DNA of 64,000 bases from Mesodorylaimus sp. YZB2_4. Taxonomy: Eukaryota > Nematoda > Enoplea > Dorylaimida > Dorylaimidae. Every line of letters starts with the position of its first letter. Position 1 is the first letter of the stretch. Below are positions 354 to 55,030 of the stretch, piece by piece. The stretch is from assembly GCA_030248295.1 (NCBI GenBank), contig JASANH010001085.1, positions 248,001-312,000 on the forward strand, read 5' to 3'. Both the position numbers and the translations under genes were made by a program. Under the pieces are notes generated by a model, which was not told the origin of the DNA, made no database searches, and saw nothing but the letters and a program-made list of their open reading frames with translations.

Positions 354-3300
354 TATCTGGGCGCAGTTGAAGTGGGCGAATCTCGAGGAATGCAAGTTTG
401 TGAAGAAGCTCTAAAAACGTTACGAGTCACTCGACGACGTCCAGTTAAAGGAATCCTGTACATTTCTGGCGATGGGTTACGGGTTGTCGATTCGGAAAAC
501 AAGGCAGGATTATAATTTATATTTTGAAAAACTCAAAAAATGCAATTTTCTATTTTAGGGCTTAGTTGTTGACCAGACAATTGAAAAAGTATCATTTTGT
601 GCACCAGATCGTAATCACGAAAAGGGCTTCGCTTATATTTGCCGCGATGGAACAACGAGACGTTGGATGTGTCATGGATTTCAAGCTAGCAAAGATTCAG
701 TAAGAAAAAAGCGGAACTACCGACAATTAAAAGTTTATTGAGTTTTTTCAAGATTAATTTAAAATTAGAAGATTGAATTTTAAAATGATATTTTGAATTA
801 AATTCATAAGTTTAAAGTAATCTGGGTAATAACTTTATGATAATTTCTTTAAAATGGTTTCAAAAATCGAGTTCGAACATTTAAATCAAAGATTTAAGTT
901 GAAATTTAGATTGCTTTCCAAAAAAGTATTTTCCTATACCGGATTGAATTGTGCGCTGTTTTTAGGGTGAACGTTTAAGTCACGCTGTTGGCTGCGCATT
1001 TGCCGTGTGTCTAGAGAGGAAACAGAAACGTGATCGTGAAGCTCAGCAAGCTTCCTCAGCTCAATCACAAGCGTCATCGACAACTACAACGCCTTTGCAC
1101 GCCGCTGTGCCCCCTGTCACGCAATCGGAAAAGGGCATTGAACCTTTCCAAAGACAAAGCTCTTTTAAACAAGCGCCTTTGACTGAGAGACTACAAGATC
1201 CACAAAATGTGAAACCTGCAGGTGGGTTTTCTGGAAACAGTGCAGAATTCTATGTATTTTTGCCAAATGGGGAAGAAGGACTGAATAGCTTGTGCCTGCA
1301 GTAGAACCAGGTCCGACATTGGGTCCCAAAACCAAACCCATTTTTTGGGTTTTTGGGTTGGGCTGGGTCGGGGAGGGCTTTTATAGAGAGTGGTTTTCGG
1401 TTGTGGAGGTTGACCTTTTTTCAAACCCAACCCAAAAACCCTTTTTTCCACTTGGGGTCAGCCTTATTAGTCAGCGTGAGCATGTGGACATGTGCATAAC
1501 GTCATTCCCGTGATAAGACCCTGGCCTTTCGAGTGCGCTGTGCCCCCAGTTAGTCTGACTCGACATGTCTTGCTTTTGAAATGCATTCCTTGAATATCAG
1601 CATCCCCCCCCCCCCCTAAAAACTTTGGAAAAATTCTCTGAAGGTGGCATCCTTCTCATTTTTTAGACCCCCCTGTCCCGCCCGCGGCAAGGGTGTGCAG
1701 GTAGCTATCTACCTTTACTGGTTTTTGACCCCCCTCTACTATTTTTGACAAAAGAACATTTTTTACATAGCGAAGACACCCCACCCTCCCCTCCCAAAAG
1801 AAAAATTTCAGTTTTCAATAGTAAAAAGACTTATTTTGCCTTGGAAGGCCCAAACTAATTTTAAATTTTCGCGGGAAAAATTTAAATTTAAAAATTCAAT
1901 TCTTACAAGCAACCAAAATGGGCCGCCATGTCGCCGACCCGCAGCCCCCCTCGGGATGAAGAGCAGACCCCCATCCCCGCAGACGAAGTCAGCGATGTTG
2001 TTGAATATGTTCCATGTGAGTATGTTGTTCTTGTGATGTCCCCAGCGTATGACTTCAGAAAACATTCTGAATGAATACTATAAGCTTGGAGTAGGTACGA
2101 ATTATATCGGGGTCAGGTTTCACCAAGTTACAGGTCCACAAGCGGCTGAGGCCTTTTCTCACTTTTAAAAAAATTGTTAGTCGGCCCCGTGCCGCCCCAG
2201 CTCTCCCTTAGGGCTGCCAACTCGTTTTGCCTATAGTCAGCCAGTATGCTAAGCGAGGCCGTGAGGTGACCAGCACTCACGGCAGGTTCCCTCTACGTGT
2301 CTCCAGAGCACCTCCACACGACGGATTCCTGTGCCAGCACCAGCCTCCCAGGATGATACTGGGCGAGAAGGGAGGATCCTTCCCGAGTGGTGTTCCGGAA
2401 TCAGTTTCCTGATCCTCTACTCGTTAGGCATCCGCCACTTGACGGTGCCCGATGAGAGGCCCAGAGCCAGGTGAGCAAGGCCAGCAACAACTACTAAATC
2501 GCAGTCGAGGGCCAGTTCCTGTTCTGACAACGGACTTACTAAACTGCAGTCCGCACGTGGAACAGAACAGCGGCCTCCCGGTCAGGGTTGCTGGCCCGAA
2601 CCCAGCATCGACCGATCCGACCCTCAGCCCGGATCCCGATCCCGATCCGATCCATGCTCTGGATCGGCCCGATCCGATCCCGATCCGATCCGATCCGGCC
2701 GATCCGAGCCGATCCGATCCCAAGCCAAAAACTGTGTCCAAAATTCTGCGCAATCTTTGTTCTTCATTCACTGATTTAAAAAACTCTGATTTCAAATCGT
2801 TTTACATATCTTAATTATGCCTTCAGGCCCAATAAGCGGGACTCCAAACAAGCTCGTTTCTTCGCGTGATCCTCAACGACAGGCCAGGATCCCGACGATT
2901 AGGCATGGGGATTCTGCATAAATAAAGAAAAAAGCACGCTAGCTAGGCTAGTCTGTTTATCGTAGTCTGTAGCAGCTCTGGGGGTGGAAGCAAAACTGGG
3001 GCGTAGCCTGCGGTAGTCGTTTGCCTGTCACGCTAGGTGCGCACTTACGATTAGAGGGGAGAGTTCGACTCTCGCCTGGGTAAAATTAATTGTAAATACA
3101 TGACATATGTTTCCTAACCCCCGATAGTGCTGCATGGTGCTTGGTCAGGAATAAAGCATGACATGACGTGAGCTGGCATGGCTTATCTATATATGGCCTG
3201 TATCAGAACTCCCTATTTTTCAAATCAATTTTCAAATTATCTATAATAATAATTAATTGGGGAAGTTTCAAAAAAGCTGTATGACTGAAAAGTGCTTCAG

Positions 3301-6300
3301 TGAGGTATAAAGGCTCATACGCAAAACACAGAAAAATCCTATCCCAATCGGGATCGCCCTGATCCTGATCCAGCTCCGTTAAGCTATCGTTAAGCTCCTT
3401 ATTCACTTCTTCTATTCGCCATTGCATCTGATTTCTCTCTGACCTCTGGAACCCATTAAAAAACTTCACGTACACGATGTCACAGAGACAATGATTATGG
3501 GAGAGAACTCAAATGTCAGAGGAGTATCGTAAAACAAGTCATACGCGTGTTTTTCAAGCAAGTAATGCGCGGCAAATTTGAAATGCCGATCCGGCCGATC
3601 CAGCGGTCGGATCGGATCGGGATCCGATCCACCCCCTGGATCGGCGGATCGGTTCGGCCGGATCGGTGGATCGGTCGATGCTGGGCCCGAACAGTGCGGG
3701 ACCAACGCCTCAACCCACTGAGCCACCGCGAGTCCAGCGACTCATGCTTCCCAAAAAAAAGCCATCGACATTTCCAAAAGTTACAGGACTTATTTTTAAC
3801 AAGAACTATAAGTGATCTTGGTTCAAAAACACAACTTTTAAGGAAAAGCATGGGCTTGAATCCTGTTAGCGATTGTCTACGAGTCAGAAGGGAGTAGGCA
3901 TTGCAGGGCCGCTTTCTAGTTTTTTTTAATGGAACTTCGGCCTTATCGTCCTTTGGTGGGGGAAGACCACTTTGTTCGAAGAACAGAGCTTGTAAGATTT
4001 AAAAGTGCCTTGGTCCCCCAACTGGGGTCATGTTATTTGTCACTTGGAGCTCGAAAATGGAATGATCGTTGAGATATGAGCAGGACACTTCCCTGGTCAT
4101 AGGGCTTTTTTTGGAGGAGTCCATAAGCCGAATTTGGAGGTGCATTCAGATTAGCTCATGTCAGTGTGTCGCCTGCTGGATAAGTTGCTTCTGCTATGCC
4201 TGAAAATATTTCTAAAGGTAGATAAAGATGCGAGCAGGCACGACTCATTCCAGGGGAGAGGGGCGACTCACTGGGGAAGCCAGGGGAGAGATTTCCATTA
4301 AACCTCCCAACTTCTCTCTCAGAGGAGACTTTCGAGTAAAGCCATTATGCTAATGCTAAGATTGCTTTTCCTGTGGTCATTTTGTGAAAAATGAAAAAAT
4401 TTTAACAATTCTGATAATATACAGTACTCTTCAGTGAACAAAAGTGGTTTTTTTGGTTGTAGTCAATTTTTTCAAAAAATGTGTGTTTTCATAGGTTGGG
4501 TTTGGGTCAAATTGTGAACCCACTGTCGGACCAGGCGTAGAAAAAGCTGGTGGGATGGAACTTGATCAGGGACATGGCTATGATGTGATTAGGGCAGTGT
4601 AGGTTAGAGCTTGCTCGGGACAGTGGTGGTAACGGGGTCAGAGTAGGCCATCCGTAGCAGGTGCGTACCTGTGATGTGAATTGGGTTGGAATGTGATTAC
4701 ATGACCTGTGGGCGCATTACAGGGAATGCATAAAGGATGTGGAATGTTTCAGAAAAACCACCAGTCCGTCCAGCAGTGAATCCACACGCCGTTGCCCGGC
4801 CACACGCTAACAGGAACCTGTTCGAACGACAAGGGTCATTGCGAATGCCGCAAATTCCGTTAAAGGAGACATCGAATGTGGACAATGGGACAATGGGAGG
4901 AGGCAATCAGGACATGTTCCGAAGATTCAATAGCTTACGTCTAAATCAACTGCCGTCCAACTTAGCTCGATATGAGCAAACAACGAGTGCAATCGGACAA
5001 GGTACAGTGGGCGTTTTTACTTGGTATTTGGGTTCATGCTTTGCCGCATCACATCACCAAGCACAGATACACGGGCGCACTCGAGGATGAAGGGACACAC
5101 GCTAGAGATTATTTACCGTCCACGTGTCGAACACTCGCCCGTGACTGCGCGCCTGGCGTGAGAGGCAGATGCTGTGTGCCTCGGAACCCAACTGAAGGCA
5201 CCGCAGGACCTCGCTATGGGGTCACAAGGGTGACCTGCTGGGCCTTTCACTTCTAGCATAGGTTCAACCAACAATGGTGTAGTGTGATCATTTGAATGTA
5301 GCGCACTTTTGATGCAAGCAGCTGAGTCTACTGAAGCGCGCTTGCGTCATGAGCTGCATTGCTCTGACGATAAGAGCGCCAGCACTCAATGCGGCGCCTG
5401 ATCGGTCAATAAGTTGATTGATTCACTTATCGCTATCTAATCATCAATCAGCCGATTGCATCGATCACTCGATCATACCCACCAGGGAATTGGCTATCAA
5501 TTGATCATTCGATTAACATAATCATCATTCCTATCGGTCGTATCGATTCATATCAGCTTTATCATATCCATTTTTCAAATTGTCTTATGGATTAAATGCG
5601 CTACAGCAAAGCCATGGTGCCAATAAATATCCCATCATTTTGGTTTCGTGGTTTTTTTAATCATAAAGTATCTCTGTCGGGCATAGGGCCCCGTTGCTGA
5701 TTGATTGATCGACTGATCAGTCGATTATCAGATATCGATAAGTAGATCAGTCGACTTATTGGCCGATCACACAGCCAATCAGGCGCCGCGTTGAGCGCTG
5801 GCGTTTTCTTCAGCCAAGAGTGTTTCATCATCGAGCCAAGAGTGCCTCCCAAAAAATAATTATAACTGAATATATATTTTCGCGCAATCAAAAATCGATT
5901 GTTTATCATTTAAAAATAATTTCAGGGGCAATACTCGAGGAAGATTCAACTCATCCTCTCGATGGTTCGTCCACAATTCACACAGCTGCGACTAATTTTT
6001 ACGGAGCACAGAGCAATTCGTCCTATTTTTCACCCCCCGTCTCCGAATTGGGCTCTCCATTGTCTCAAACACGATCAGCCTCTTTCGACGCCCCCTTGAC
6101 CAATGGTCAAGGTAAGGGTGGCACATGGGACTCCAGCTCAGTTCGAGGGGCACAGTTCGATCACTCAACAAACTATTCCCCAGCCTCTCATTTACCCACT
6201 GCTCATTCAACCACCGGCAATACAGGCCGATTGCGAGGCGACGAATGGTTACAAACTGCGGCTAAACAAGCAAAAATATTTCAACATTATCGAATGAGTC

Positions 6301-6707
6301 CACCCGTTAGTGAACAATCGGAACAACGGGGGATGGTGCAAGAAGCAATACCAACCAGGGCGCCATCTGGTGTGGCCCCACCCTCCTTCGCTCCACCACC
6401 ATTGCCACCACGTCAACCACAGCCACCACCACCACTTCATCAGTTCTCCCAACACGCGCACAGTTTCGACTTTGGTCACGCGCCACCCCCGATCGATACC
6501 AAGACAAGTTCGGGCACCAAACGATTTCCCGTCGATTTTCGATCACCCACTGAACCTGCAGTGGTCGACTTCGATACCAAGTGGAACGCATTGACAGCAG
6601 CTCAGCAGAGGAGACACTCTGAAATATTGACGGGAGGGGACAGTGCGAAAACAATGTTGTCATCAACAAATCCATTTAGTCAGGAATCATCATCTGTCAA
6701 AATTTGA
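354..6707 (+). CDS. numb: Numb, endocytic adaptor and cell-fate determinant (5' end outside window)
   Basis: This is the C-terminal two thirds of the Numb adaptor, which binds membrane cargo such as Notch and links it to endocytosis. Five exons fit: 354-503, 559-699, 966-1221, 4753-5001 and 5926-6707, and all junctions keep frame. The first three encode most of the PTB domain, including [41 protein letters not shown] and [20 protein letters not shown], which I recognise as Numb-specific. Exon 4 carries the NumbF-like block ERQGSLR ... [18 protein letters not shown]. Exon 5 is rich in Pro, Ser and Gln and ends with an NPF motif at 6669-6677, the known EH-domain (Eps15) ligand. The start codon and first PTB strand lie upstream of the window. 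The first intron (504-558) appears to use a GC donor. Intron 3 is 3.5 kb of nested transposons and intron 4 holds another element. Family assignment is firm; the exact exon 4 and 5 borders are inferred. Confidence 0.93.
504..558 (+). other. numb: Short GC-AG intron of numb
   Basis: The exon ends in AAC AAG and is followed by GCAGGA rather than GT. The intron ends in the T-rich acceptor TATTTTAG, and the next exon resumes with [13 protein letters not shown], the expected Numb PTB sequence. At 55 nt it is very short. GC-AG introns are a known minor class. No GT near the border keeps the conserved protein sequence. Confidence 0.7.
1640..1915. repeat. Dispersed repeat with 'GTCCCGCCCG..AAGGGTGTGCAGG' and 'TTAAATTTTCGCGGG' blocks
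   Basis: The blocks CCCCTGTCCCGCCC, AAGGGTGTGCAGGTA, TTTTTTACATAGCGAAGAC and TTAAATTTTCGCGGGAAAAA occur in the same order at 51160-51590. There the first part is repeated three times and the copy runs straight into reverse-transcriptase sequence. It has no coding potential that I recognise. It lies inside the numb-intron element, so it is probably a nested insertion. Confidence 0.6.
2165..2450. repeat. Degraded GC-rich dispersed repeat
   Basis: The stretch contains GTTTTGCC .. AGTCAGCCAGTATGCTAAGC .. GTGTCTCCAGAGCACCTCCAC. A diverged relative with the same order of blocks is at 22865-22985 (GTTTTGCCGGCTAGCAGTC .. GCGTCTCCAATTGGAGCACC). It may belong to a SINE or LINE body. No open reading frame of known type is present. 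Confidence 0.4.
2602..3684. mobile_element. hAT-like non-autonomous element with CCGATC subterminal arrays
   Basis: A 17-bp perfect terminal inverted repeat, CCAGCATCGACCGATCC, lies at both ends. The element is flanked by a perfect 8-bp direct repeat GCCCGAAC (2594-2601 and 3685-3692), the target-duplication length typical of hAT transposons. Just inside each end is about 100 bp of degenerate tandem CCGATC/GATCCG units, in opposite orientation at the two ends (2612-2725 and 3585-3670). The interior codes for nothing recognisable and carries a tRNA-derived SINE. It is nested inside the larger element of numb intron 3. Boundaries are certain to the base. Confidence 0.85.
3024..3170 (+). mobile_element. 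tRNA-derived SINE, family I (5'-truncated)
   Basis: The copy has a pol III B-box-like stretch GAGTTCGACTCTC (about 3061-3073), then CGCCTGGGTAAAATTAATTGTAAA, and the family tail GTGCTTGGTCAGGAATAAAG ending near GACATGACATGAC. The same body and tail occur at 18641-18815, and the tail at 39228-39288 and 62350-62475. It is inserted inside the hAT-like element, so it is younger than that element or moved with it. Confidence 0.7.
5376..5803. mobile_element. TIR element in the last numb intron with TGATCGAT-rich subterminal DNA
   Basis: The left end CGCCAGCACTCAATGCGGCG is matched in inverted orientation at 5782-5803 with few differences. Adjacent TGATCGGTCAATAAGTTGATT and its inverted partner extend the match past 50 bp. 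Internally, short GATTGATCGATCA-like units recur near both ends. I found no convincing target duplication, so superfamily is open; the CCAG...CTGG ends resemble the hAT-like elements elsewhere in this window. Confidence 0.6.
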
Positions 6708-6716
6708 AAGTGAGGA

Positions 6717-7700: not shown

Positions 7701-7708
7701 GTATAAAG

Positions 7709-8706
7709 CCAGGGTCGACCGTACCGGCCGTACCCTACCGCAGTACCGGGGGGGGGGGGGGGGTGGCACGGTACGGTACGGGTACGGCACTAAAAATAGG
7801 GCGGCACGGCCGTACCGAGTTATATAATATTTTGTGTGTAATTTAACGCTCGCGCACATGCAGTCGCTTAAAAGCGGCAAATTTTTACGGAGAGGAAATG
7901 AGTCTAGCAGCTGTTGGTTATTAATCCTAAACATTTTCAGATAACTGAGCTATAAAAGTAACCAAAATTTTTTAAGCATTCACTCGCAGAGCATCTATCT
8001 TATAATCCTGATGCTATTAGGCTGACTTTAAGGCTGAATTCTCATGAATTCCTTATGAATTATTCTCATAAATATGACAAGTGCTGCTAAAAATGCTGCT
8101 TTCTTGAACTGAATTGTGGTCATTCATCGAGTCGCTGTTGCTGCATGCTCGCCTGCAATGCTATAGTTTCCTACATGAAAGACTAAATTCTTTGCCTTCA
8201 ATTTTTCGAAGCGAAACATCGAAACAGGAGGCTTCTGGATCTACTACAGCATGAGCACAGATTTATACCATGGTCTCATATCATTGGAGTTGTATGTAGA
8301 TCATGAGGGGTCCTTGAGCCTATAAGTGCAGCAGCATGGTAGAGACGAGGGATTTCTGGTAATCTGCGATATCAAACGAGTGGAGACCTCTTTAAAGTCA
8401 AGGATTTCGGGCTCTTATCCTTACATCATTGCTGTTCTTGGTTACAATACTGTATCTTAAAACCCGCCGATGATCAAACTGTTCGCAGCGATGGAGTAGA
8501 TAAATATATGGCATGACAATTTTCGACATGCGCACCAGAGCTAGAAAGCCTTTACTTAAAATATCTATAAAATCTTTCGAGAAAAAAATTCAATTTTGGC
8601 TGTCAAGATGGGGTTTTTAATTAGTACGGCACGGTACGGCTGTACCAGGCCCCCGGTACGGCTACGGTATGGGTACAGTCAAAAAAGTCGGTAAGGTCCA
8701 CCCTGG
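7709..8706. mobile_element. hAT-like non-autonomous element with GTACGG subterminal arrays
   Basis: The ends are CCAGGGTCGACCGTACCG and, inverted, CCAGGGTGGACCTTACCG (16 of 18 bases equal). The flanks carry a perfect 8-bp duplication GTATAAAG (7701-7708 and 8707-8714). Subterminal DNA at both ends is built of degenerate GTACGG/CCGTAC units (7718-7820 and 8622-8690), and the left array contains a 16-base G run (7748-7763). The 998-bp element encodes no protein that I recognise. CAGGG-type ends plus an 8-bp duplication are hallmarks of the hAT superfamily. Confidence 0.87.
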
Positions 8707-9306: not shown

Positions 9307-9324
9307 TAGATACAAAGATGGATT

Positions 9325-10096: not shown

Positions 10097-10099
10097 AAC

Positions 10100-17783: not shown

Positions 17784-20700
17784 TCAGGCTGATGATGTTC
17801 TCGTTGCATTGCTCGTAGGGGATGCAGTTTTGCCATAAATATTCTCTTTCGAACCAGTATCCTTTTCTCGATCGGCTCCCGTTTCGCCTGGTTTTGGATG
17901 TGCAGCAGGTGGACTGCCATTACTGCTCCTGGTCGATGCTGCTGTCGATGAATTTCGATGTGGATAATCTTCGCCCAGAATGGTCACGATTTCGCCTTGC
18001 ATGAATGCCCAGGGGGCGCAGGACCCAGCCAAGGGGCATTTCTCGCCCGATGGACAATAGACCTCGTTGCCAGCGCCTTGTTTGATAATCGATGATTTAC
18101 TGCATGGGAAACAGAATTTGTGATAAGTGACCGACGGGCATTGAACAAAGTGAGTGTCCTCCAGGCGTTCGTGACACAAGGTGCATCGCAGATGGAGGGA
18201 AGCGGGCACTGAGGCTGCCGTGGGGGACGTTTCATGCCCGGATGCACTGACGGTTGAACCAGCTGACGAGCACGAAGTGGACTTGGCCGACAATGGGCCG
18301 GAATCCAAGTGGAGCGGGGTCACTGGCGCTGGTCGATGTGGTGCTGCAGAGGACACTCTGGCCGTGGAGGCTTGTAGGCGTTGAGCGACCGACTCCAGAT
18401 GCTGTTCAGGGGAGTGGACATTGGGTGGACTGAATGTGGGGCCACTGGACGCATGATATTCTTCATTCCGATCTGGAAACAGTGAAGCCATGTTAGACCA
18501 GAGGGGAGGAGAATGTTGTTTGCATAAAATTCATGTTTGTGCATGCACTGAAAATGAAGTCACTTGATATCCACTAGCTTAAAAAGCAGGTCACAATCAG
18601 ACACCTAGCAGGCTCAAACTTTAATCACTCCTTTAATCCGTGTATGGCCCAAGTCGTGGCCTAACGGGTCAAGGCGTTTGCTTCTAAAGCTGGGTGCGCA
18701 TTTACAGGGAAGGGTTCGACTCCCGCCTGGGTAAAAATTATTGTCAATCTTTGTGTTCCTTAGCCCTCAAGTGCTCCTTATAGTGCTTGGCTATGGATAA
18801 AGTGTGACATAACCAGTGGTAGAAAAAGCTGTTACACTGCAGTACGACTGGGTGTATTCCTGGATGGAGTGACCGGTGGAGCTTTTGCGCGGCCGCGGTG
18901 GTGCAGCGGTTCGGTTCGGAATTCGTCTCTCCGTATTGCTTGGGAGCGAGTGGCTGGACTCGTCCCGGGTTCGATCCCCGGTAATGGAGGTCGGTTCGCG
19001 AACCATAAACCCTCGCTGACCTTGCACGCCAGGCCGCGGGGGACCCACCCGATACCGCCGAGGTGCTCCGAGTGGAGAGACGGAACCCAAACTAGGAGAC
19101 AGTCTCGGCTGTCGAGCACCGACAGGGTTCAAAGCCCCCAACCAAGTCTATCGGCCTACCCCAAGGGTGAAACATCGCTCAGACGGGTCCTTGCAGAGAC
19201 CAACAACATGATCCTGAGGGCACTCCAGAAAGTGCATCCTATCGTTTCGCATCGCTCATTTTTTTCACCACGTGCCTCGCCAGGCGCTCCCTTTCATTCC
19301 GTTCAAGTATTCAAACCAGTTTTTCATTAACTTATGATCCAAGGGACCAGTGAATCGTAAAAACTCGTGACTTAGTCGAGCACAAACAAAATGTTTTCGT
19401 CATAGACTTATTTCAAGTTTCTTCGATATTTGATTGATTATACATAAAATCATAAAAACCTGTTTTCTAAACGGATGCGCCCGAAGGAACTAGATTCATT
19501 CCATTTTAAAATATTGTTCTAGCACCGATCTTTGCCCACCCAACATTTACGACTCGCGGACTAGTTAGTCGGCAAAAATCGCCAACCAACTACCTCATGG
19601 CCCAATGAACGATGACGATGAGGCAGTGGGTGGTGGTCTTTTCTAAAAAGTATACCCCGCCCGCATGAAGGTCACTAGAACGATGTCTCGCGGACGTTTC
19701 CACCAAGAACTGAGAGAATAGAAAAAAGTTGAAACCGAATTCTAAGAATTGACTGATGCGCTCATGCACCGCCTGGCCCCCAGCATGGAAACGTCATTCT
19801 TGCGTGGACAATTTTCGTCGACTCGAGGCTATCGGAACGCGTCTAATAATGGCATTGGCCTGAGGGGAAAGGAGAGGGCGAGGAATGCTGTGTTTCCAGT
19901 AAATATGGAGAATAGTGTTGATAGCGTATAAAAAGGGTAAAAAATTTTTCCACGTGATGAAGGAGTCGGAAAGAAGAGGAAATATAGCGAGAAAAGTAAA
20001 TCGGCAATTGGGACTAGAAAAAGCAGATGCGTGATTGCATGTTTTCTTGGAGATTATGGGACGGTTACGAAGTATGGCTTGAAAATCATAGGTGCGGTCC
20101 GTGAAAACAGTATTTACAGGGTGGTCATGCACGAAAAGAGTTGCAAACTGAGTCCTCTGGAAAGAAAGTCAAAGCTTATTGCAGTGTGGGAAAACTCCAA
20201 AAATATATGCACATAATCAGATACATCCTATGGCAAAAAGAGAGGGTGTTTTGAAATACTGGTGGTTCAAAGTTGGACGTTTCGTCACTGACGATGGATT
20301 ACACGTATATCCCCGTTTGAGGGAGGGGCAGCAGCTGGTTTACCAGGCCAACGCATTTTCGCAGAACTGTATATAATAAACCAGACTTACTTGCATTTGG
20401 CCCTTTCGGTTTCAAGTCATATGCAAGGAGTACTTTCTGCTCATCTGGCATTAATCGTTTTGCAATATGTCCATTAGAATTAGTCAGATCCTCGTCGTCA
20501 CCAGATCGTTTTCTACTAGCGATCGCGTTAGCCGTCTCGGAGCCGCTGCTGGGTCTGTTGCCCATGGCGGCGGCTGGAGCCAAGGGTGGCAATCCGGCGA
20601 ATGCCAAGGATGGAATGGAAGCTGGTGCGTGTATTGCCACTGGCATTTGAATATTAGCTGGTGGTATGGCCAGCCTGGAGCCAACACTGTTCGATGTAGT

Positions 20701-24414: not shown

Positions 24415-26255
24415 CGGAAGCGCCCCCCACAATTCGCCCCCACAACTCGCCCCCCCTCGCCCCCACCCTCGCCCCCGCCAACTCGCCCCTACTCATTTTC
24501 ATTACTGTACATTTATGTTTCATGAACAATCAAGAAGCAAAAGTTGACTAAACAACATCCAATCATTGTCGCCAAAAACGCAAAAGAACCAAAAGAACCC
24601 GCATGTACGAGAATTAATTAGAACTCAAAATTATATGCATACCTCGCAAATATCAACAAATTGCGATTGCCGTAGTCTTGAACAATATTCTTACACGACA
24701 ATCGACATACTTCTTGTTTCGCGATTTCCAGATTTCCAGCAATCAACTGCGGATTTCGTAATTGTGATCCCTTGTTGCTGCTTGAGACATTCGATAACGA
24801 TAGATATTTGGGAAAGGCTGAAAGTTCCTTGAAATCACGTGCCATCCCTCCATCGTTGTTGGTGCGTTGGTGCCTTCAAGCGTACCTGCACGTTCCACAA
24901 TTCGATTGGAAAAGCTGGGCCTGCGACCTCGGCGTCCTCCGCCAATGTCACGTCTTCGAAAATTTCGATCGGTAAGCATCTTCAGGAAACTCTTCATTTT
25001 CGACAAGCTCCTCGAATGCGTTGACAACATCGGCAGGAGGAACAAATGCCAGAGCTGGTATCATTCGGATCCAACGGGCGAAATCGTGATCGTTCGAGTA
25101 CCTCTCTTTCAGGCCTTCGCTTTGAACCTTCCTCCAGACGCATTGAGCCAAATGGAAAAAACACCCAGTCTTGGTAATGCCTTGAAATTCCTGGTCAAAA
25201 GCTTGCAAAGCGGCTTGCTCAAAGTCAGTCATAAGCCTAGCAGGATGCAATCCAGGTTGTAAATTTTTCAGCTCCTGCAAGAGCTTCACGTATGTCGCCC
25301 GAGTCTTGTTTGGCAGCAGAGCATAAACGACAGGAATCACCGCATTGTACTTAACGACGTGAATAGTGTAAAGTTGATGAAACAAGCTGGGGGCGGTACT
25401 GAACGTGCCATCGACGAACCAATCCAAGCTTTTGGCTAATAATTGCAGATTAGCCCGCGTTGAAAAAATAAGCATCCGGCCAGGAAGCAGTTCGTCACCA
25501 GAATCATACATCAAAAAACGTTGATTCGCGCCGTTGATCGTGATTTCCTGATACGCTTCAGGAATAACAAGATCGGCGACGGTCTGTGGCAAGGCAGGCG
25601 TTTCACCAACGTTTCGGGTATTTCTAATCGTGCGTTTCAACGAATCTTTCGTGGGAAGCAACGCGGCGACGTTTTCATGAGCGCCAGCAACGACAGCAGC
25701 AACGATTTGCTGCGGCAATTCATGAGTGGTCGATGCTGACTTCTTCCATAATTCGCAGCGCCTCTGGACGCGCAGCTTGAGCGGCATGATTGTGGCCGGT
25801 GACAATCTTGACCACTTCTCCATCGACTCCGTTCGTCCAAACACGACCCTTGCAGCTGGATCGCTTTTCGCAAACCCATATTCCGTTGAGTTCGTTTTTC
25901 GTCTTTTTTGAGAACACGTAAATATGATTTTCATGTACCAGCTTTCCTTTTCCCCTTTGAGATTGGACGCTGTCGGCCATTTTCGAAATAATCCGGCTCC
26001 CAATAACAGTATTTTGAGAAAGGGGTTTTTAGAGAGACAGCCAACTGATTCGAAGCAAAATGGGCAATTGGCAAGATCTCCCATATAGCCCGCTTTTATA
26101 CTTGACACAACTGCTGACCCCAGGTCATTTGTTTGGTCCAAAATGATTTGGGTCAGGGGGCGAGTTGTGCGGGGGGCGAGTTGCGGCGGGACGAGTTGCA
26201 TGGGGGCGAGTTGTGCGGGGGCGAGTTGTGGGGGGGGGGCGACTTTTCCTCATGC
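24415..26255 (-). mobile_element. Mutator-like element (MULE) with tandem GGGGGCGAGTTGTG ends
   Basis: Both ends are tandem arrays of a 14-bp unit close to GGGGGCGAGTTGTG, inverted relative to each other (24421-24488 and 26155-26247). Between them is one transposase reading frame on the minus strand with FLYWCH and MULE-type DDE segments. No target duplication was found with confidence, so the outer limits are approximate. It was inserted among LINE debris. Confidence 0.8.
24618..25980 (-). pseudogene. MULE transposase with FLYWCH zinc finger, frameshifted
   Basis: Three frames together give one transposase. Residues from 25980 to about 25740 form a FLYWCH-type finger: HIYVFSKK, then GIWVCEKRSSCKGRVWTNG, then GHNHAA. 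From about 25740 to 24960 comes the catalytic part: SLDWFVDGTF gives the first Asp, LMTDFEQAA the second, and GCFFHLAQ the C/H signature. From about 25000 to 24618 is the C-terminal part, RRRDIGGGRRGRRP..F, TLEGTNAPTTMEGWH (a degenerate RTNN-E-WH-like block) and the LRNPQLIAGN..IVQDYGNRN region. Two frameshifts (near 25740 and 24960) separate the parts, so the copy is dead unless the assembly is wrong there. The long frame beginning at 26201 reads through the terminal repeat and is not the true N-terminus. Confidence 0.85.
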
Positions 26256-27287: not shown

Positions 27288-27445
27288 GATCCAGGTCCGA
27301 CAATGGGTTCACAGTTCGATCCAAACCTAACCCAAAAATATTGGAGTCGAACCCAACCGGAAACCAATCTTCGAAAACTCAAACCCAGCCCATCCGCAAG
27401 TAAACCCAAACCCAATCCATAAAAGCCCATATTTTTCAGACCTTC
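27288..27445. mobile_element. Solo end of a hAT-like element (AACCCA family)
   Basis: The end CCAGGTCCGACAATGGG is nearly identical to the left end at 1307 and leads into AACCCA-rich DNA (27325-27420). I find no matching inverted end nearby, so this is a truncated copy or its other end has been lost. Confidence 0.5.
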
Positions 27446-27874
27446 AGGGACGCCCTCCCGTATATACAATATATAGTGTACACCTAGATCTTATTTTGAC
27501 TACTGAGAGCAGAAGCTCATTAGGAGATTTAAAGGTATCGTTTCAAGTGTAACGCTAGGAGCTAGATTTTGGCCAGAGTGAATTCAAAATTAGCACAAGG
27601 GGTCTGAATAAGGGCTAAAAAATATTTTCCGATTCAGTCACTCGGCCAGGTGACCAGCGCCCATCCTTTTTGATAGCAATGATCGGACTTATAACAAGCG
27701 CGGAATGGATATAATTGCCAGGTGTGCGCGCTCGAGCGACAAGACGTCAACAAGTTTTTGTTTTTTCGCACTTGGATTGGTCTCTTGACTTTGCTAACAG
27801 ATAATATAGTTTCTTCGCGTGATAGTAACTAATTAATTTTAATAACTTTCTAACAATTTTGATATACTCGTGAA

Positions 27875-28125
27875 ATGCCGCACAAGTGTTCAGTTCCTTA
27901 TTGCAAAATCGGATGGACACGCATCCACTGACATCGTTATTTGGATTACCAAAAGACGAGCAACGACGGGCAATATGGCACGCTGATGACCAAAAGCTGC
28001 GAGCGGAACCGAAGATTTGCATTCTTCATTTTGAAGAACATTTCCTCGTAACTGGTCGAAGTCGTGTTACATTGAAGAAAGACGCTGTACCGACAATCGT
28101 TGATCGGCATGCGCCTAGGGTCCAA
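27875..28125 (+). pseudogene. THAP-domain first exon of a Kolobok-like transposase
   Basis: The exon starts MPHKCSVPYC, giving the paired Cys of a THAP C2CH finger, then after a frameshift continues LTSLFGLPKDEQRRAIW..A, with ICILHFEEHF supplying the distal C..H, and VTLKKDAVPTI matching the AVPTI/F end of THAP domains. It stops at a GT donor (tccaa|gtgagt). THAP domains bind transposon ends. The frameshift near 27920 and the missing downstream exons make it non-functional here. Confidence 0.7.
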
Positions 28126-28532
28126 GTGAGTCTTATGAATACGATCATGTATGTCGGCTGGCTCCTTGTTTCCTCCTAGCTTTAGGCCATAGCTATAATT
28201 CAAACAGCTGAACACCTAGCAGGCTGAAGTTAGCTCGCGTTTAGCAAGTGAAGACCTGCTGATCTCCAAGTTTCTATTCTTGAAAACCTCTCAGTAACAC
28301 ACAAACGGGCGGGGCTGCTATGCCGGAGGTGTCGAAGTTGAATGCTTCAATGGCACGTTGCTTGATAGTTATGGAAAACGTGGCTAGTTGGTCCAAATGT
28401 TATTTCTTTTCTAGGACAGCTGTGCCTCGTCGGCGCCAATAAGAATCATTTTCCCATCTACTCTACATACCTCCTAAGGGAACAGTGTCAGATCGCTGCA
28501 ACACGCAGCCCAACATGAAACTAGCAACTTAC

Positions 28533-28639
28533 CTCCGTCGTTCTGCAAGTTGCCTTCGTCTTTCTTCTAACAACTCTCGCAGCCTCTCGTTGTCATCCGA
28601 TGGCTCGAAACGGTAGGCCTCGGCGCTGAAACTTGCCAT
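28533..28639 (-). pseudogene. Orphan first exon with YRFEP motif, second gene of the TTAA element
   Basis: From an ATG at 28637-28639 the frame reads MASFSAEAYRFEPSDDNERL, then a charged Arg/Glu helix, and ends at a good donor (CGGAG|gtaagt). Proteins with a P2X7-intracellular-type cysteine-rich domain often begin Y-x-F-E-P followed by acidic residues, so this could be the start of such a protein. No following exon is seen. The relationship is inference. Confidence 0.4.
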
Positions 28640-29655
28640 TTGGTGTTATCCAATTTCGTAATTACTAGATCAGACTCGACGGTCATCAGAGTAGGGAACA
28701 TGCAACGACTTGATGAAACATACCGACATATATGAAGACAAAGGTCGCTCGAGCGCGCACACCTGGCAATTATATCCATTCCGCACTTGTTATAAGTCCG
28801 ATCATTGCTATCAAAAAGGATGGGCGCTGGTCACCTGGCCGAGTGACCGGATCGGAAAATATTTTTTTAGCTCTTATTCAGACACCTTGTGCTATTTTTG
28901 AATTCACTTTGGTTAAAATCTAGCTCCTAGCGTTACTTTTGAAACGATACCTTTAAGCCTAGAAACGGACTTATGACCGTCACCAGTTTTGAATTCAAAA
29001 TTGCTCTTTTTCGTGAATGATCAAATCTCTGGGAACAAAACATTAAATTTAAATTCTAAGAAAAAATATTATCAATCAGCTAATATCACATTGTTTCATT
29101 TCAAGAATCACAGGGCGCTGTGGAATGAAGGCACCACAGCGAGTTCGCTGCAGTTTTTAATTAGATTTCTATCTTTTTTCAAACTGTCTGTGCCAGCCTT
29201 TGGCGAACATGTCTTGGCAAACCTCATCGAGAATGTGGAATTAAAATTTATTTTCATGTTTGAAACAAAATGGAATGGGTTCCATATCGACCAGGGTAAT
29301 CGGAAAGGCCTGAAACGAGATGATCTGCTGGAGCCATAATTTAGGTCAGCCGTCGCCTACTTGCTCAGATTCTGAAAAGGACAGTGAACCCCTGCCTAAG
29401 CTTATCGGCGGTAGAAAGTCAAAAGACGTCATTCGCTAGCTGAGAAATGAATTATTAAAAATTTAATTTGATGATCCTTGGGTTGAAGAAATGAGCCTCC
29501 TTCGAGGGCAATCCCACGAAACCTTGTCTGATCTTTCTTTGTGCTCGAGTCACTCACTGATCTTAATACGTCCCAGGTATTGTGTCAGAGCTACCATAAA
29601 GGCAAGTGAACCGTAAAGTTGACCAGTTGAGTCCAGTGCAAGCTTACTGATCATC

Positions 29656-39288: not shown

Positions 39289-39839
39289 CCAGGTCCGACA
39301 TCGGTTAAGGAAACTGTACCCGACCCGACCCGAGGTCTGAAATTCAAAACCCGAACCCGACCCGACCCGAGGGCTACTTTACCCGAACCCGACCCGACCC
39401 GCGAAATCCCTTCTAAACCCGACCCGACCCGACCTGATTTTTTTCTAAAAAAAGGTTTTTTTGACAAAAAGTTTTTCGCAGTATTTATTTCTGACGCTGA
39501 AGAAATATGTTCTTTCACGAAAATAGAGGCTTCTCATCAAAATGGCGCACAAAAAGTAAATTGCAAACGGTTTCAGGGGCCAATCGATTTCGCAAATCAG
39601 TCACTGTCAAACCACCATATCTTGAATAACCACCATATCATTAAATAATTTGAATTTGATTTGCGGTAATTTGAAATTTGAATTTTTGTGTGTCATAAAA
39701 GTCGGGTTTTTTGGGCCTCATAATTAAAGCCCGACCCGACCCGACCCGAGAGAAATCGAACCCGACCCGACCCGAACCCGACTTTTCGGGTCGGGTTTTC
39801 GGGTTCGGGTAAGGGTCGGGTACCCGATGTCGGACCTGG
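39289..39839. mobile_element. hAT-like MITE with ACCCG subterminal arrays
   Basis: Perfect 16-17 bp inverted ends, CCAGGTCCGACATCGG, with a perfect 8-bp duplication CTGTCAAG (39281-39288 and 39840-39847). Subterminal DNA at both ends is made of CCCGA/ACCCG units (39313-39432 and 39731-39829), inverted relative to each other. The 551-bp element has no coding capacity. It shares its terminal 12 bases with the elements at 1307 and 27288, whose subterminal unit is different. The right target copy overlaps the stop codon of the adjacent receptor gene. Confidence 0.9.
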
Positions 39840-47794: not shown

Positions 47795-47799
47795 GGGGT

Positions 47800-49070
47800 T
47801 GAAGTACTGTAAAAATGAGAAATCGATGGGACAGACTGATAAATTGACCAGAGCTCGGGTTCTGTGGTTAGCTCACGATAAGGATTTATATATGTGGAAG
47901 GATTGCATAATCTCGCGAACTTTGTTGGGCAAGTGGCGGTCGGTTGTTATCTCAATAAAACTTGGACTAAAGCAAGTTTGCATTTATGACTGCACTTCTT
48001 CCGTCAAGGCAAAACAGATAAGACCAGATCAATGAGCGAACGGTATGCTTGATTCACACTTTGCCTGTGTGTCTGCGTCAACAGTAAGTCGCGCGTGCCC
48101 GCAGCAGACAACAGATCGGTGCAGTCAGAAGGTTCAGTTGATCTACTACAGACTTACTGCAAAATGGCTAAATTTGAAACTTGCGCTAGGAATGCAGTGA
48201 GAAGTGCTATATAACAAATAATTAAGACAATGTCGTCGGGTTGTTACCAAGCTTGGCAGGAGTAGGAGGGAGGCGGCGGTCAAAAAGAACATTGTCATCT
48301 CCGAGCTCGATCACTAATCATGGACCAATCTTGCCGTTCTGCGCCGAATCCGCAAAAAACGACAGCCATATGTATTCGATTCGGAGTCGGCTGCCGCATC
48401 AGCCCCATTGCGGTCGGGGACCAGGCCAAGAAAAGAATGTGTATCTGGCAACATGCCAGAGAATGCGAATGAATCTAGCTCATTTTTTTGCAACGACATT
48501 CGCTTCGAAATTTTCTTGATTTTGCCTTGTGTACACCCCACATAGCATGACAGTTGGCAGCTGTCATAAGCAAGCAAGCCGACAGCGTGCTTATCTGAGT
48601 CCTCATTTCGAAATTGGAATTTCCATGCTTTAAAGTGAGTGAACTGCTGCTGTTTATGTTCCGAGCGGGCCAGAAACCATAAACTGGTTATCCAGTCAGG
48701 AAATCAGATTTGCGCACTCTTTACGCAGCAAAATGTTCTGTCATTGTCCTGGATGAACATTTTTAAGTTGCAAAGGCTATCAAATCCCACATTAACGGAA
48801 TTTTTTTACATGGACTTACTAATCGCTAGGGTATTTGGGTGCGTCACAGTTCCTCAAACCTACGTGGAGACGTACCTGACGTGTCTCACAATCAGGTGAA
48901 TCTGGTAGTTCCCCCAACTGTTTGACTTCATACTTGCGTTCTGCCAGTTTCTCAAACCAGCATCACCCCACTGAACCAGCCAGAATATGCGCGTATGAGA
49001 AAACTGAGGCACCAAAACACAGTCTCGGTAGAAACCTGAGTCTACCACCGAAAAGTCGACGGTCAGCTCT
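47800..49070. other. Intergenic DNA, no gene seen
   Basis: Several frames of 60-95 codons occur on both strands near 48240-48580 without recognisable domains or splice partners. The part next to 47794 should contain the promoter of the minus-strand kinase-like gene. Confidence 0.35.
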
Positions 49071-49075
49071 TAAAA

Positions 49076-50576
49076 ATGATCACTTCGCTAATACTCTCTG
49101 TCATATCACCTTGGTTGTTTACCGGCCAATCATATCTGATGATCAAGACTGGATACAGCTGGCACGAAGCGACATATTTGTATTGGGGTGGAGGATGCGA
49201 TTGGAATAATGGTGAGATAGGCATTGTGCCAGTGCCAAGCGATCAGTGCGGTAGCCAATGTGCAAAAACGCCTGGCTGCACGCATTTCACTTGGACCAGG
49301 GCGAATGGTGGGACGTGTTGGGTGAAGGGTGGTTCAGTGACCCAGGGTCGAGCAGTGCCAGCAGTCAGTGGCTATTCTACATGCGGGATGATGAAACGAG
49401 GCGCACCCATGGGCGCCAAATATGTGCGTGGCTGCTACTATACCAGCTGGTCACAATATCGACCTGGCCAAGGAAAATTTACGCCTGAAATGTATGTGCC
49501 AGGCATATGTTCCCATCTCTTCTACGCTTTCGTGGGCATGGGAAGTGATTTTGAAGTCAAGTAAGTTACTTCGAACTGATTATTTCAATGATCTGTTTTT
49601 TGTGAATTGGTCGGATTTTCTGATCTTTTCAGGACAAGAGATCGAACAGACGAAGCCACTTTCATCAAACTGAATGCCTTGCGTCATCAGCAGCCAGATC
49701 TTAAGATCCTCGTGTCCTTGGGCGGATGGTCATTCAGTATTCACAACGAAGCTCTGATCAGAAGCATGACCTTCAACGCTGCCAGTCGCGCCATCTTCAT
49801 CCAATCAGCTGCTTCTTTCGTCCGCCAACGAAACTTTGATGGTTTCGACATCGACTGGGAATTTCCGAAGCTGGAAGACAAAGATAATTTCGCTGCACTG
49901 ATCACAGAAATGAGGGCATATTTTGAAAAAGAGGCTGAGTAGTGAAAAACCTCGTCTGTTGCTCACAGGCGCTGTGGCATCGACTAGTTATCTGATCGAC
50001 CGTGGATATGATGCCCAGAAATTAGGTCAAGCATTCGACTACATCAATATCATGTCATACGATTTCAATTTAGGCAACCAGTCTCGAACTGGTTTTAATA
50101 ATCCTCTCTATGGCCGCAACGGCGATGGGCGATCCATCTCAGATGCAGCTAAGCACTGGACTGAACTCGGGGTGCCTGAATCCAAGATACTGATCGGATT
50201 GGCCACTTACGGCCGCGGATTCCTCAGCTCTAGCACCAGTGTAGGTGCGCCTGCCACTGGACCCAGTCCCCCGCAAGCTTATTCCCGCAAGCCTGGACTG
50301 GCTCCTTATTACGAAATCTGCGCGAAAGTGGACAAGGAAGGATTTGTACAGAGATATGACACTGTTCAACAAGCGGCCTGCGCGACTGGACAAGGCCAGT
50401 GGTTCGGGTACAACGACGTGGCCAGCTACCATGTCATTTTGGACTGGCTCAAACGCAATAGATATGGCGGCGCGTTCGTGTGGACTTTGGATGATGATGA
50501 TTTCTTGGGCGTTTGCCCATCGAGCCAGGGAAAATACCCACTGCTCACTGCGATAAAATCGAAGCTGGGTGGGTGA
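49076..50576 (+). pseudogene. PAN/apple-like domain fused to GH18 chitinase, one frameshift
   Basis: Exon 1 (49076-49560) has a hydrophobic leader, then a Cys-rich PAN-like module, GGGCDWNNGEIG..CGSQCAKTPGCTHFTW..GTCWVKGG, then the start of GH18 (YVRGCYYTSWSQYRPGQGKF, HLFYAFVGM). Exon 2 follows a short intron (gtaagt at 49561, acceptor ttttcag) with LVSLGGWSFS and FDGFDIDWEFP, the DxxDxDxE active site. At 49940 the frame meets TAG; shifting by one base restores AGAVAS-like GAVAST, YDYINIMSYDF-type sequence, the GLATYGRGF block and GGAFVWTLDDDDF to a stop at 50574-50576. So a single-base lesion lies close to 49940. Chitinases hydrolyse chitin; the PAN module could bind glycan or protein. It may be a recent pseudogene or an assembly error. 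Confidence 0.85.
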
Positions 50577-51159
50577 GACTTAGTTGTTGTATCAAAATGT
50601 TTAGTGCCTTGAACGTTAGACAAGTTACTGTTAGGGAATAGCGGACAGGGAAAAATGCGGAGGAATAGAATCCGAAGATTCACGATAATGTTCTTGCGTG
50701 CCTGGAAGATTAATAATATACTGTATATATGAATAATATGCAAGTGGAAATTTGCAAGGACGATAAAACCGAAACATGCTCACTCAAAAATCTCCAAACA
50801 AGATAATAGAGAGAAAACTGATTATTTCTGTGCTTCCTCATAAAGCAGATGTTATGTATCAGCAGCACTTAAACCCTGCATAATCCATCCAAGTCACTTT
50901 CACTATGTGCATGCAGCATTTACAAAGTTTACGCTTTGATGAGCGGGATGGAAAGGGCTTTACTAGTAAGAATGTTCCACGACTTGCACACATCTCCGAT
51001 TGTGAAACTGGCCTCTGCACACAGACTGCTAGTTTGATTTGATTGGTGTTGACCTCTGCATAAAAGCTATGTATCTTTCCTCTGGGGCGCAGGTCAGCCC
51101 ATATTTTCTGCTAAAAATACCAAAAAAATCCACTTCTTTGTCGTGTTGAACTTCAGTTC

Positions 51160-51600
51160 AACTTCTGTCCCGCCCAGCGAGGGTGTGCAAGGTGCCTTTA
51201 CTGTGTTTGACCCACCCCGCACACCCTATTTCTGACAGAAGAAAATTTTCTTACATGGCGAAGACCCCCATTCAAAGTTTTTAAAAAATTTTGTAAAGGG
51301 GGGACCGTTCAATTTTTTAGACCCCCTTGTCCCGCCCGGCGAGGGTGTGCAGGTAACTTCACTGTTTTTACCTCCCCCCCTTCCCTACTACCTTTGGCAG
51401 AAGAAAATTTTTTACATGGCGAAGACCCTCCTGTCCCGCCCGGCAAGGTTGTACAGGTACCTTTGCTATTTTTGACCCCCCAAAAAAAATTTCATTTTTC
51501 TATGGTAAAAAAAGACTCAATGGGTTGCCTTGTAAGGCCCAGACCAACTTTTAAATTTTCGCGGGAAAAATTTAAATTTAAAAAATTCAATTTTTTCAAA
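51160..51600. repeat. Dispersed repeat, internally triplicated
   Basis: The unit TGTCCCGCCC.GCGAGGGTGTGC..ACCTTTACTGTTTTTGACC..AGAAAATTTTTTACATGGCGAAGAC recurs about three times (51165, 51327 and 51430). It then continues with TTTTAAATTTTCGCGGG. A single-unit copy is at 1640-1915. It joins the reverse-transcriptase relic without a gap, so it may be the 5' region of that LINE family or a fusion. Confidence 0.65.
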
Positions 51601-52600
51601 GTACTGCCGAAGCTTATTCGTTTGCTCTCTTATTTATCTGACCACAGTCAGCGGGTTGTCGTGGACGACTGTTCTTCAGACATTGTGCATGCTGCGCCTG
51701 GAGTGCCTCAGGGCAGCATATTGGGGCCCTTATTATTCGTTTCTTTGATTGACTCGTTATTTTGCGGCTTCCAGAATCAGAAATGTCTTTTCAGGGATAC
51801 GCAGATGATACTGGCATGTTCGTCGTACTGAAATCATTGCAAGATGCGGAATGGCTACCACAACCAGCGATTGATTACGTCTCATCATGGGTCGAGTCCG
51901 CTGGTCTCGATTTTAATCTCGATAAATCCCAAGCGATCATCTTTCGGTATGGTCATGGTAGGCTGCCTTATTAACCCTCATTTCTCTTACGAGGTCACAA
52001 ACTGGAGTTCAGGGATGAGGTAGTATATCTTGGCGTACTTTTCGATTGTAAATTGAAGTTTAGCGCTCATGTGTCTAATGGAGTTTGCAAGGCTGCTAAT
52101 ATGATAGGGGCATTAAGGAGAAGACTTGGCAGGCACGTGGACCCGAGTGTTTCAGGAAAAGTTTATAATACTGTGCTAGAGTATGGGGCAGCATGCTGAA
52201 ACTCGGTGTTACAAAAGAAAGTTGATGAATTAGAGCGCGCACATTTCTACGCTCTGAGGCTCTGAGGCTATATTTAAAAGATTTTGGAATTTCTTATGAA
52301 GATGGATTAGCAAAGGCCGGTTGGAGTCTTTATTATAGGAGGAAGCGCTTGAAGTCGTGCCAGTTTTATAAGTTTTATCATAGCCTTCATGACTTTCCAA
52401 ACGCGCGTTTTTTACATAAATCAGATACTGTTCGCGCTAATGTTCGCTCGATTAAGTGACATAGATCTCCATTTATTGGTCCCAAGGCATAACTTTGAGT
52501 CATACAAGAAATGCTTTATTTTCTCGGCAATGCCTTTGTGGAATACTGTGCCGTTGGATGTTGCTTGGGGTACTTTACACTGGCTGGCTGGGGTGTGACA
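51600..52600 (+). pseudogene. LINE reverse transcriptase relic, 5'-truncated
   Basis: Frames read LLSYLSDHSQRVVVDD, APGVPQGSILGPLLFVSLID (motif B), GYADDTGMFV (catalytic box), LDFNLDKSQAIIFRYG and a C-terminal YYRRKRLKSCQFYKFYH..PLWNTVPLDVAW. Several frameshifts and stops. It is related to, but diverged from, the copy at 23040-24340. Confidence 0.85.
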
Positions 52601-52906
52601 AGTCTCAATTTCGTCAATGACATGACATTTTCCCCTTTGTGTGTGGAGTAGCGTTTTTAGCATGTTTCATGATCCCTGAGTTTGCTTTTATGCATTTGGT
52701 CATGAATGAATGGATGAATGAATGAATTAATTGGGGCTCAAGTAAATAAGTGCCTGTTTCAGGCACTTTGAACTGTCCCTTTGATGTCTGCAGGTTGTAT
52801 GCATGCAGGTATTTGGCTAATGATAAGATTTCCTCTCTACATTTTTTATCCTGCGTTCCGCAGCTCACGATCAGTCTTGGTTTTGAATTGCGTAACAACT
52901 GTAGAT

Positions 52907-55030
52907 TAGTGTTACAATGACCTGGGTTTTTCACTGTCTGACCTGACCCTGACTCTGACCGACCCTTCAAAAAATTTTCTGACCTGACCCTGACTCTGAC
53001 CGACCCTTAAAAAAACTCTCTGACCTGACCCTGACCTTGATCGAACCAAAAAACTTTCTGACCTGACCATTGACCTGCTAGGAATTGTGAATTTTTTGGC
53101 TCCGACTTTGTCATTGATCGAACAAAAAATTTTGCTTACAACTGGCACCAGTAATAGCTTCTCTGTGTTTGGAATTTAACCAAGAAATTTCACTACAGCT
53201 TACAATATCCTGGCATTGTGTTAAATTTCTCGTTCAGCTCAAGAAACTGAATTTTTATCCAGCTCAAAAAGATATGCAAAGCTGTTTTCAAGGATTTGGG
53301 AAAACTAGAAAAAAGTTGACGCCCATTGAAAATCATAAATAAATCTCATTCGTTATAACGTCAATTCCTGTTCCAACTGCCCCCGCATGATCGATTTCTT
53401 TGAATCCGAGATCCCGTAATTCCGTAATCCGAGAAAAGGCGCTCTACCAGGCTGGAATTGGCTGGTACAGCCAGCATATCTTTCGCCAATTAGGCCGAGC
53501 TTGGATGAAAATTCGAATGGGAAGAGATAATGATGGCTATGCCACGATAGCTGGCATTCGCAAGCGCACACTACGCTGGCATACACAAGTCTATTCAGCT
53601 GGGCTGGTAGGTTGCTGGGCGAGTAAGATGACCGCACTAGCACAATACTAACAATCAGCAGGGGCAAGTTTCACAGTACGATCCTAATTTCATGACAGGT
53701 ACAACTTCAGGGCATTGTTTAGGACAGCAACTTGGGACAACACAATATCTGTCCTAGAAATGCCTTCTCCGTAGATTTAGGCACGCCCTAAGACAGGTCT
53801 CATCTAGTTTCACAGTTAAAAAAGGATGACTTAAGACATTTCAGCAGACAAAAAAATTCAACGCTGAAAATACATAAGTTACTGTACGTGTAAGCTGGGC
53901 ACCCATTACTAATCGAAGTTTGCTGTGCGATTGTATCTGAATGATTTTACTATTTCACGAGGACGGCTTGGCTAAGGCAGGCTAATCCACGTTATATGAG
54001 CTCTATAAACGTGATAAATTGGGTTTATTTTAAAAGCTTTAGCATGGGTTTAACGATTTGGAAATCCTCGTTTCATGTACAAAATCTGACCGTCATGTTA
54101 GTGGGCGACTGGGTGAACTACATCATTTGGTTTCTCCGAGTCAAAATTTTGAGTCTTACAAAACACAATTTTGTGTTTTTTTTGCGACTCTTTTGCGGGA
54201 ATCTGTACTATGGGAGAAAACTTGCTAATAACTATACCGCGCGTATAAGTGAATTAATTCTATGCGTGTCCGTCACGTCAAGTGCCAGTATTTGCTTGGG
54301 TTAGGAGTAAAATGATGATGATGATGACAGGATTATGTCGTCCCTTTTTTGGCTTCAATAGCTAAATAAGGACGATAGAATATCAGTTCAGTTGAAAAGA
54401 GTCGTTTTTGCGGGTGGAGAGAGCTAGGGCAGTGCCGAAATTCCAAGACGCTAAAAGATTGCCCTGAAAATTGCTCTAGAAAGTCAGCTCAAAATTGCCT
54501 TAGATGAAGGGCAATCGCCCTGTGCCTGACAGCCATGACAGCATGGCAGTGCTGCCAGGATATAAAGACACCAGACTTGGGACAGGGTCGAGGTTGTCCT
54601 AAACAAAAGACAGCTCGGTGTCCCAGGGTAAAACACCAAGCTGATTATGAAATGACTTGGGACTGTCCTAGACTTTAGTACATGCCTCGGGATTTAGAAT
54701 TGTGACACTGCCCTCAGATCCATACACAGGAAGGCGGGAACTTGAAAATTCTTTCGCCAACATTTCTCTAAACTAACTTTCTTTCGCTGCCAGAATACCC
54801 TGACTGGGTGCAAGAAATTTGTTGTGTTTTCCGTGAGCTCGGGGTACGTACTTAGATATCTTAATCGAAGATTTAATCTTAATTCTGACCTGACCTTGAC
54901 CTTGATCGGTCCCTCAAAAAACTTTCTTGCGTGACCCTGACCTTGACCTACCCCTGACTTTGACTAAGAGTCGGTCAATCAGGGGTTTGACAGAATTCTG
55001 ACCTTGACCTTGAGGTCATTTCTAACACTA
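52907..55030. mobile_element. hAT-like element with TGACC subterminal arrays
   Basis: The ends are TAGTGTTACAATGACCT and, inverted, TAGTGTTAGAAATGACCT. The flanks are CTGTAGAT (52899-52906) and CCGTAGAT (55031-55038), an 8-bp duplication with one change. Subterminal DNA is a degenerate array of CTGACC/TTGACC units (52920-53070 and, inverted in part, 54885-55015), with regular AAAAA..TTTCTGACC spacing. The 2.1-kb interior shows no transposase. A TAG start and 8-bp duplication are seen in some hAT lineages. Confidence 0.78.

Follow-up and report, generated by a model that had tools for sequence, protein, structure and literature searches.

How elements that end in the same bases come to carry different short repeats just inside those ends is the question raised by a stretch of 64,000 nucleotides of the nematode Mesodorylaimus sp. 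YZB2_4 (C66:248001-312000), here called the window, which was analysed together with a genome of 145 Mb in 1067 contigs. A first, sequence-only reading of the window had described a set of hAT-like elements, each with its own tandem unit inside both ends, and had proposed that the unit turns over faster than the terminal inverted repeat (TIR).

Five elements, all given without strand, and one lone end are present in the window. For the three elements described as having perfect 8-bp duplications, both coordinates and sequences hold. The first, at 2602-3684, belongs to the CCAGCATCGACC / GATCC family and is flanked by GCCCGAAC at 2594-2601 and 3685-3692; its TIRs lie at 2602-2613 and 3673-3684 and its unit arrays at about 2614-2721 and 3586-3672, no coding sequence was seen in its six frames, and the whole is nested inside a further element at 1307-4535. 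The second, at 7709-8706, belongs to the CCAGGGTCGACC / GTACC family, with the duplication GTATAAAG and one TIR mismatch, and has at both ends a unit array that is weak if taken alone. The third, at 39289-39839, belongs to the CCAGGTCCGACA / ACCCG family and has the duplication CTGTCAAG; its arrays occupy 39318-39430 and 39730-39825, and it contains on the minus strand, at 39539-39625 (C66:287539-287625), a remnant of 29 codons of the ACCCG-family transposase with 93% identity, which is the only trace of a hAT dimerisation domain found in the window elements. The element at 52907-55030, with a duplication of 7 of 8 bases (CTGTAGAT/CCGTAGAT), and that at 1307-4535, with a degraded one (CAGTAGAA/CGTAGAAA), are also as had been stated. 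The former is hAT-like, with the TIR TAGTGTTA, which matches in its first 8 of 8 bases and is divergent beyond, and the unit TGACC, and is a sister of an element on C114 with the unit TTTGAC; the latter belongs to the CCAGGTCCGACA / AACCC family, has one TIR mismatch and is interrupted by 2602-3684. An element reported to start at 27288 proved to be a lone end of the CCAGGTCCGACA / AACCC family, of the other end type than 1307, which lies on the plus strand at 27291-27400 and for which no partner was found in the window within 2 mismatches. TIRs of 12 bp with 0-1 mismatch bound the elements at 2602, 7709, 39289 and 1307, and also those on C813, C330, C237 and C1061 described below.

A window-wide scan for an 8-bp duplication combined with an 11-bp TIR returned two pairs at 0 mismatches (2602 and 39289) and seven at one mismatch (7709 included; three of the seven sit in GATCC arrays), and three shuffled windows gave no mismatch-free pair and 0, 1 and 0 one-mismatch pairs. 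Unit counts in the outer 200 bp, each set against the highest of 200 shuffles, were 52/26 (left) and 25/20 (right) for 2602, 54/22 and 33/19 for 39289, 46/34 and 24/15 for 52907, 15/25 and 16/16 for 7709, and 15/21 and 8/20 for 1307. The arrays claimed inside both ends, in opposite orientation, are thus clear at 2602, 39289 and 52907, and those of 7709 and 1307, not exceeding the shuffles on their own, rest on the family copies. Chance or low complexity was ruled out by these shuffles and by the reversed-pattern controls given below, excepting the weak arrays of 7709 and 1307.

The window also holds features of other kinds. Pfam matches were obtained in 7 of 10 window reading frames tested (GPCR, EcKL kinase, chitinase, IRF-2BP and MULE), which mark the DNA as that of an animal, and Rfam at its own thresholds gave no match within the window. 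The MULE transposase frame (24951-26249, minus strand) lies between or beside two oppositely oriented arrays (CCCCCACAACTCG, 24424-24489; GGGGGCGAGTTGCGG, 26156-26236), and the region 24424-26249 may be a Mutator-like element that carries end arrays of its own. The stretch 27587-28898, immediately inward of the solitary AACCC end at 27291, also resembles an element, with near-identical 25-bp inverted ends (AAA.TAGCACAAGG.GTCTGAATAA) and the duplication TGAATTCA. A tRNA-like stretch of the GGTTCGATCCCCGG type, probably a SINE, occurs at 18965, 26925 and L068:937.

Elsewhere in the genome the hAT dimerisation domain has at least 94 matches (150 of 171 candidates scored), and 16 of the 30 PF05699 loci fetched were flanked by two ends of these types and an 8-bp duplication, L019 being counted among the 16 from its printed ends and not by the script filter. 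Two elements are complete and have perfect duplications, C813:3341-6044 (duplication TCCTTAGG, TIR CCAGCATCGACC, unit GACCC) and C330:78617-81231 (duplication AGCCTAAA, TIR CCAGCATCGACC with one mismatch, unit GAACC), both of which encode a BED-finger hAT transposase. In each, a BED exon adjoins the right end, and a predicted intron separates it from a second, long open frame (629 aa in C813, 627 aa in C330). Perfect duplications also flank the elements C237:124588-127249 (ATTCAGAA) and C1061:1137-3805 (GTCTATAA), both with the TIR TAGCGTTCGTTC, the unit GGGATC and a stop inside the BED region, and C114:18039-20193 (ATGCACGT; TIR TAGTGTT, unit TTTGAC). At C25, a BED exon and a frame of 607 aa are accompanied by a single decayed end of GTACC type, a second end of this element being sought and not found; the locus (L045, C25:105800-110500), in which the hAT frame and the BED exon are still open despite the decayed or missing ends, is either an old copy or a host-kept gene. 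C901 combines a GACCC end with a BED exon that shares 69% identity with the C813 one, and of the second exon it has the first part only. Pfam PF05699 (hAT dimerisation) matched C813, C330, C25 and C237, and PF02892 (BED) matched C813, C330 and C25 above the cut-off. Homology of the transposase to Hermes was found, C813 aligning across both catalytic stretches. By their duplications, TIRs, dimerisation domain, BED finger, Hermes alignment and subterminal repeats, the elements are real hAT transposons. The BED exon of the GATCC family, the largest, was not found among the 36 matches of a PF02892 search, among the 33 matches of a search with the C813 BED exon, or around C6, a relative that is truncated at its 5' end, contains stops and has an end of the GATCC type; C953 was rejected as a candidate, its match being weak and its other frame glycosidase-like, as judged by eye only. 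A search for a complete ACCCG-family transposase gave 43 matches, fragments only and no whole gene.

The window elements belong to multi-copy families, and when ends were collected genome-wide and their units grouped, as had been suggested, one 12-bp TIR was found with different units in different families. Places were counted against those of the reversed pattern. CCAGCATCGACC (35th place non-A) occurs at 937 places (control 21), followed among 100 matches listed by GATCC in 50, GACCC in 16, GAACC in 5 and other bases in 29; the near-identical CCAGGGTCGACC (35th place S) occurs at 182 (control 11), followed among 100 matches listed by GTACC in 69 and by GATCC, GACCC or GAACC in none. CCAGGTCCGACA was found at 227 places against 19 reversed, one of its pattern searches being noisy by itself (37 places against 14), and the 137 ends classified (100 of 190 of one pattern and all 37 of another) comprise AACCC (72, two end types), ACCCG (37, two end types) and others (28). 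The ends at 1307 and 27291 represent both end types of a single AACCC family and hence do not differ in unit; of the claim that 1307, 27288 and 39289 share their outer 12 bases and differ in unit, what survives is the difference of 39289 (ACCCG) from the other two. TAGCGTTCG..CGG has 340 places (control 17), with GGGATC in 66 of 100 matches listed, GGGGTC in 10, a GGGGAC type in 8, a GGGGCCCC type in 2 and others in 14, and here the three bases preceding the unit vary with it, being TTC in 62 of 66 GGGATC ends and ACC in 9 of 10 GGGGTC and 8 of 8 GGGGAC-type ends. One TAGCGTTCG-type element (L007:1501-2438) is nested within a CCAGGTCCGACA / ACCCG element. TAGTGTT..AAATGAC.TC has 142 places (control 0), and its 100 matches listed include the TGACC family (window 52907) and the TTTGAC family (C114). 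Ends near CCAG..TCGACC with the unit CCAGGACC are found at L120, L123, L124 and L129. One TIR with several units is therefore found in the CCAGCATCGACC and also in the TAGCGTTCG, CCAGGTCCGACA and TAGTGTT ends.

The units track the transposase clades. From 65 rows, 23 C-terminal domains were kept for a tree; near-copies, short fragments and rows in which no end could be seen were set aside. The 11 units need 10 changes on this tree, the fewest possible, against a mean of 16.9 after shuffling, and none of 200 shuffles reached so low a value; near-copies help this score. GATCC, GACCC, GAACC, GTACC and GGACC fall into one clade (99/98) and GGGATC, GGGGTC and GGGGAC into another (99/98), the GGGGAC label of C464 being weak on account of a mixed array; neither GGACC nor ACCCG forms a single group. 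This is as expected if arrays co-evolve with the predicted binding domain, in agreement with what the sequence-only reading had supposed. Its fast switching or swapping within a family was not borne out, as over the copies listed each family has one main unit. The transposases of C813 and C330, which have a common TIR and different units, are 54% identical (that of C25 is 49% identical to C813 and 54% to C330), so the change is old and accompanies protein divergence. The opposing picture drawn beforehand, in which each family would have a fixed unit and the termini would be unrelated, applies in its first half, since the unit is largely fixed, and fails in its second, since the termini are the same.

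Inside the TIR, the scaffold of the ends is kept and the unit bases are changed. Right ends of the GATCC, GACCC and GTACC families have the same order of TIR, unit, ACC, unit, GGCC, unit, unit, GCC and unit, and GAACC ends have the first 39 bp in common with them. Over the outer 39-47 bp, differences at unit bases 2-3 against differences at the other inner bases amounted to 9/10 v 0/25 for GATCC-GTACC, 10/10 v 1/25 for C901-GTACC, 9/10 v 1/25 for C813-GTACC, 5/10 v 1/25 for GATCC-C901, 4/8 v 0/19 for GTACC-GAACC, 4/8 v 1/19 for C901-GAACC, 3/8 v 0/19 for GATCC-GAACC, 3/10 v 1/25 for GATCC-C813 (p 0.061) and 3/8 v 1/19 for C813-GAACC (p 0.065), whereas C813 and C901, which have the same unit, gave 2/10 v 2/25. 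Seven of the nine different-unit comparisons have p below 0.05 (6e-8 to 0.019) and two miss 0.05, values which are to be read with the pairwise comparisons being non-independent and the 47-bp stretch having been picked after the ends had been inspected; in an alignment of 150 bp of the ends the excess is seen only in comparisons with GTACC. Some slots hold the unit of another family: GATCC ends and the C813 end both read GAACC in slot 3, the C813 end reads GATCC in slot 5, and the L079 end, otherwise GACCC, begins with GAACC in slot 1. This suggests that the sites changed one by one, and with the spacers between units being kept it disfavours wholesale swapping. Slippage is visible in L088-L094, which have lost units, and at a GTACC end (L060:640-798) copies of a 22-bp superunit follow one another head to tail, a case of array growth by slippage.

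A study of Hermes describes a single BED helix by which the subterminal repeat is read, with R63, Q64, T65, S66, N67 and R70 at the bases (PMC10368747), and Ac is described as binding AAACGG repeats to which specificity is attributed (PMC3260210). From the comparison of ends and enzymes, we consider it probable that the specificity of the BED finger and the site array diverged together, TIR and spacing being kept. The elements would then form sister families of hAT transposons with a BED finger, in which most copies have suffered internal deletions. Common to these families would be the outer 12 bp together with the way the adjoining sites are spaced, and the 5-6 bp unit would be the word that the BED zinc finger of each family recognises. 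Where the finger of a lineage changed its reading, the sites would have changed at the same base positions, presumably one at a time under selection, with TIR and spacers staying as they are; the outcome would be families that are alike at the tips and probably unable to move one another.

In the fingers, Hermes positions 63-67, mapped by hand and anchored on the shared R-H pair, correspond to C-N-N-S-S and C-N-N-S-H in the GACCC fingers of C813 and C901, to C-S-P-T-P in the GAACC finger of C330 and to C-T-P-G-P in the GTACC finger of C25, R70 being constant among the four. As there are four fingers for three units, a residue code can be offered as a hypothesis only, in which G-P would select TA, T-P would select AA, and S-S or S-H would select AC. 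The fuller reading of which this code is part, a radiation of specificity across several hAT lineages of the genome in which residues 66 and 67 set unit bases 2 and 3, sites on a fixed scaffold were rewritten and mutually incompatible families arose on one TIR, is tentative, and we hold it to be somewhat doubtful. Within the TAGCGTTCG class, fingers that go with different units have much the same helices. A PDB search with a BED exon gave ZBED2 as the sole BED protein (E 0.26), and a structure model of the BED region from four exons (mean pLDDT 59) was too poor for use.

Other histories can be set against a joint divergence of finger and sites. The families may have diverged in other hosts and arrived singly, with no rewriting in this genome, and transposases that are 49-54% identical fit such an old divergence; however, separate invasions relocate the change without explaining the kept scaffold and the changed unit bases, and we regard them as rather unlikely to be the whole account, although they are compatible with the explanation preferred here. 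Array turnover may instead have been neutral, a new unit being spread by slippage and gene conversion by chance while the transposase tolerates it or follows later. Slippage does occur, as the superunit of L060 and the unit loss in L088-L094 show, but irregular spacers (ACC, GGCC, GCC) keep their register between ends of different unit, foreign-unit slots such as slot 3 (GAACC in GATCC and C813 ends) persist, and units track transposase clades, which together make a neutral origin improbable. Nesting (2602 in 1307; L007) would give recombination the opportunity to place one TIR before unrelated arrays, but such an exchange of ends is very improbable, as the likeness spans 39-47 bp with spacers in register, beyond the 12 bp, and the families compared have sister enzymes.

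The hAT superfamily and its repeat-binding transposases are already known. Hermes likewise has 8-bp duplications and a BED-finger transposase whose BED helix reads short repeats near the TIR, but as presented in that work it is one element with AAG(T/C) repeats, without one-TIR sister families of different units (PMC10368747). Maize Ac/Ds is similar in its 11-bp TIR, 8-bp duplications, many short derivatives and AAACGG subterminal repeats, which are bound by the transposase and are the probable source of specificity, and differs in that the Ds classes vary around one repeat and one transposase (PMC3260210). In Tgf2/Tol2 of fish the BED zinc finger is required to bind an end of TIR and repeat, but a single family is concerned (PMC4890040). 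Kat1, a domesticated yeast hAT, has TIRs and subterminal hexamer repeats whose polarity is reversed from one end to the other, yet it is a single locus with a repeat conserved among related yeasts (PMC4763223). What looks new is the presence in one genome, and in more than one TIR class, of sister families that keep TIR and spacing and differ in unit; among the papers listed in a search of the open-licence literature there was no earlier report of one-TIR sister hAT families with different repeats.

The finding bears on the question of how families of DNA transposons become separate, so that one family no longer mobilises the copies of another. The BED finger/site pairs are ready material for learning how BED domains choose their DNA, and the ends are candidate independent ends for laboratory transposon tools. 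The sister families described here differ by one or two bases in most of their putative binding sites, with a matching difference in transposase clade, and offer a natural case of transposon family separation.
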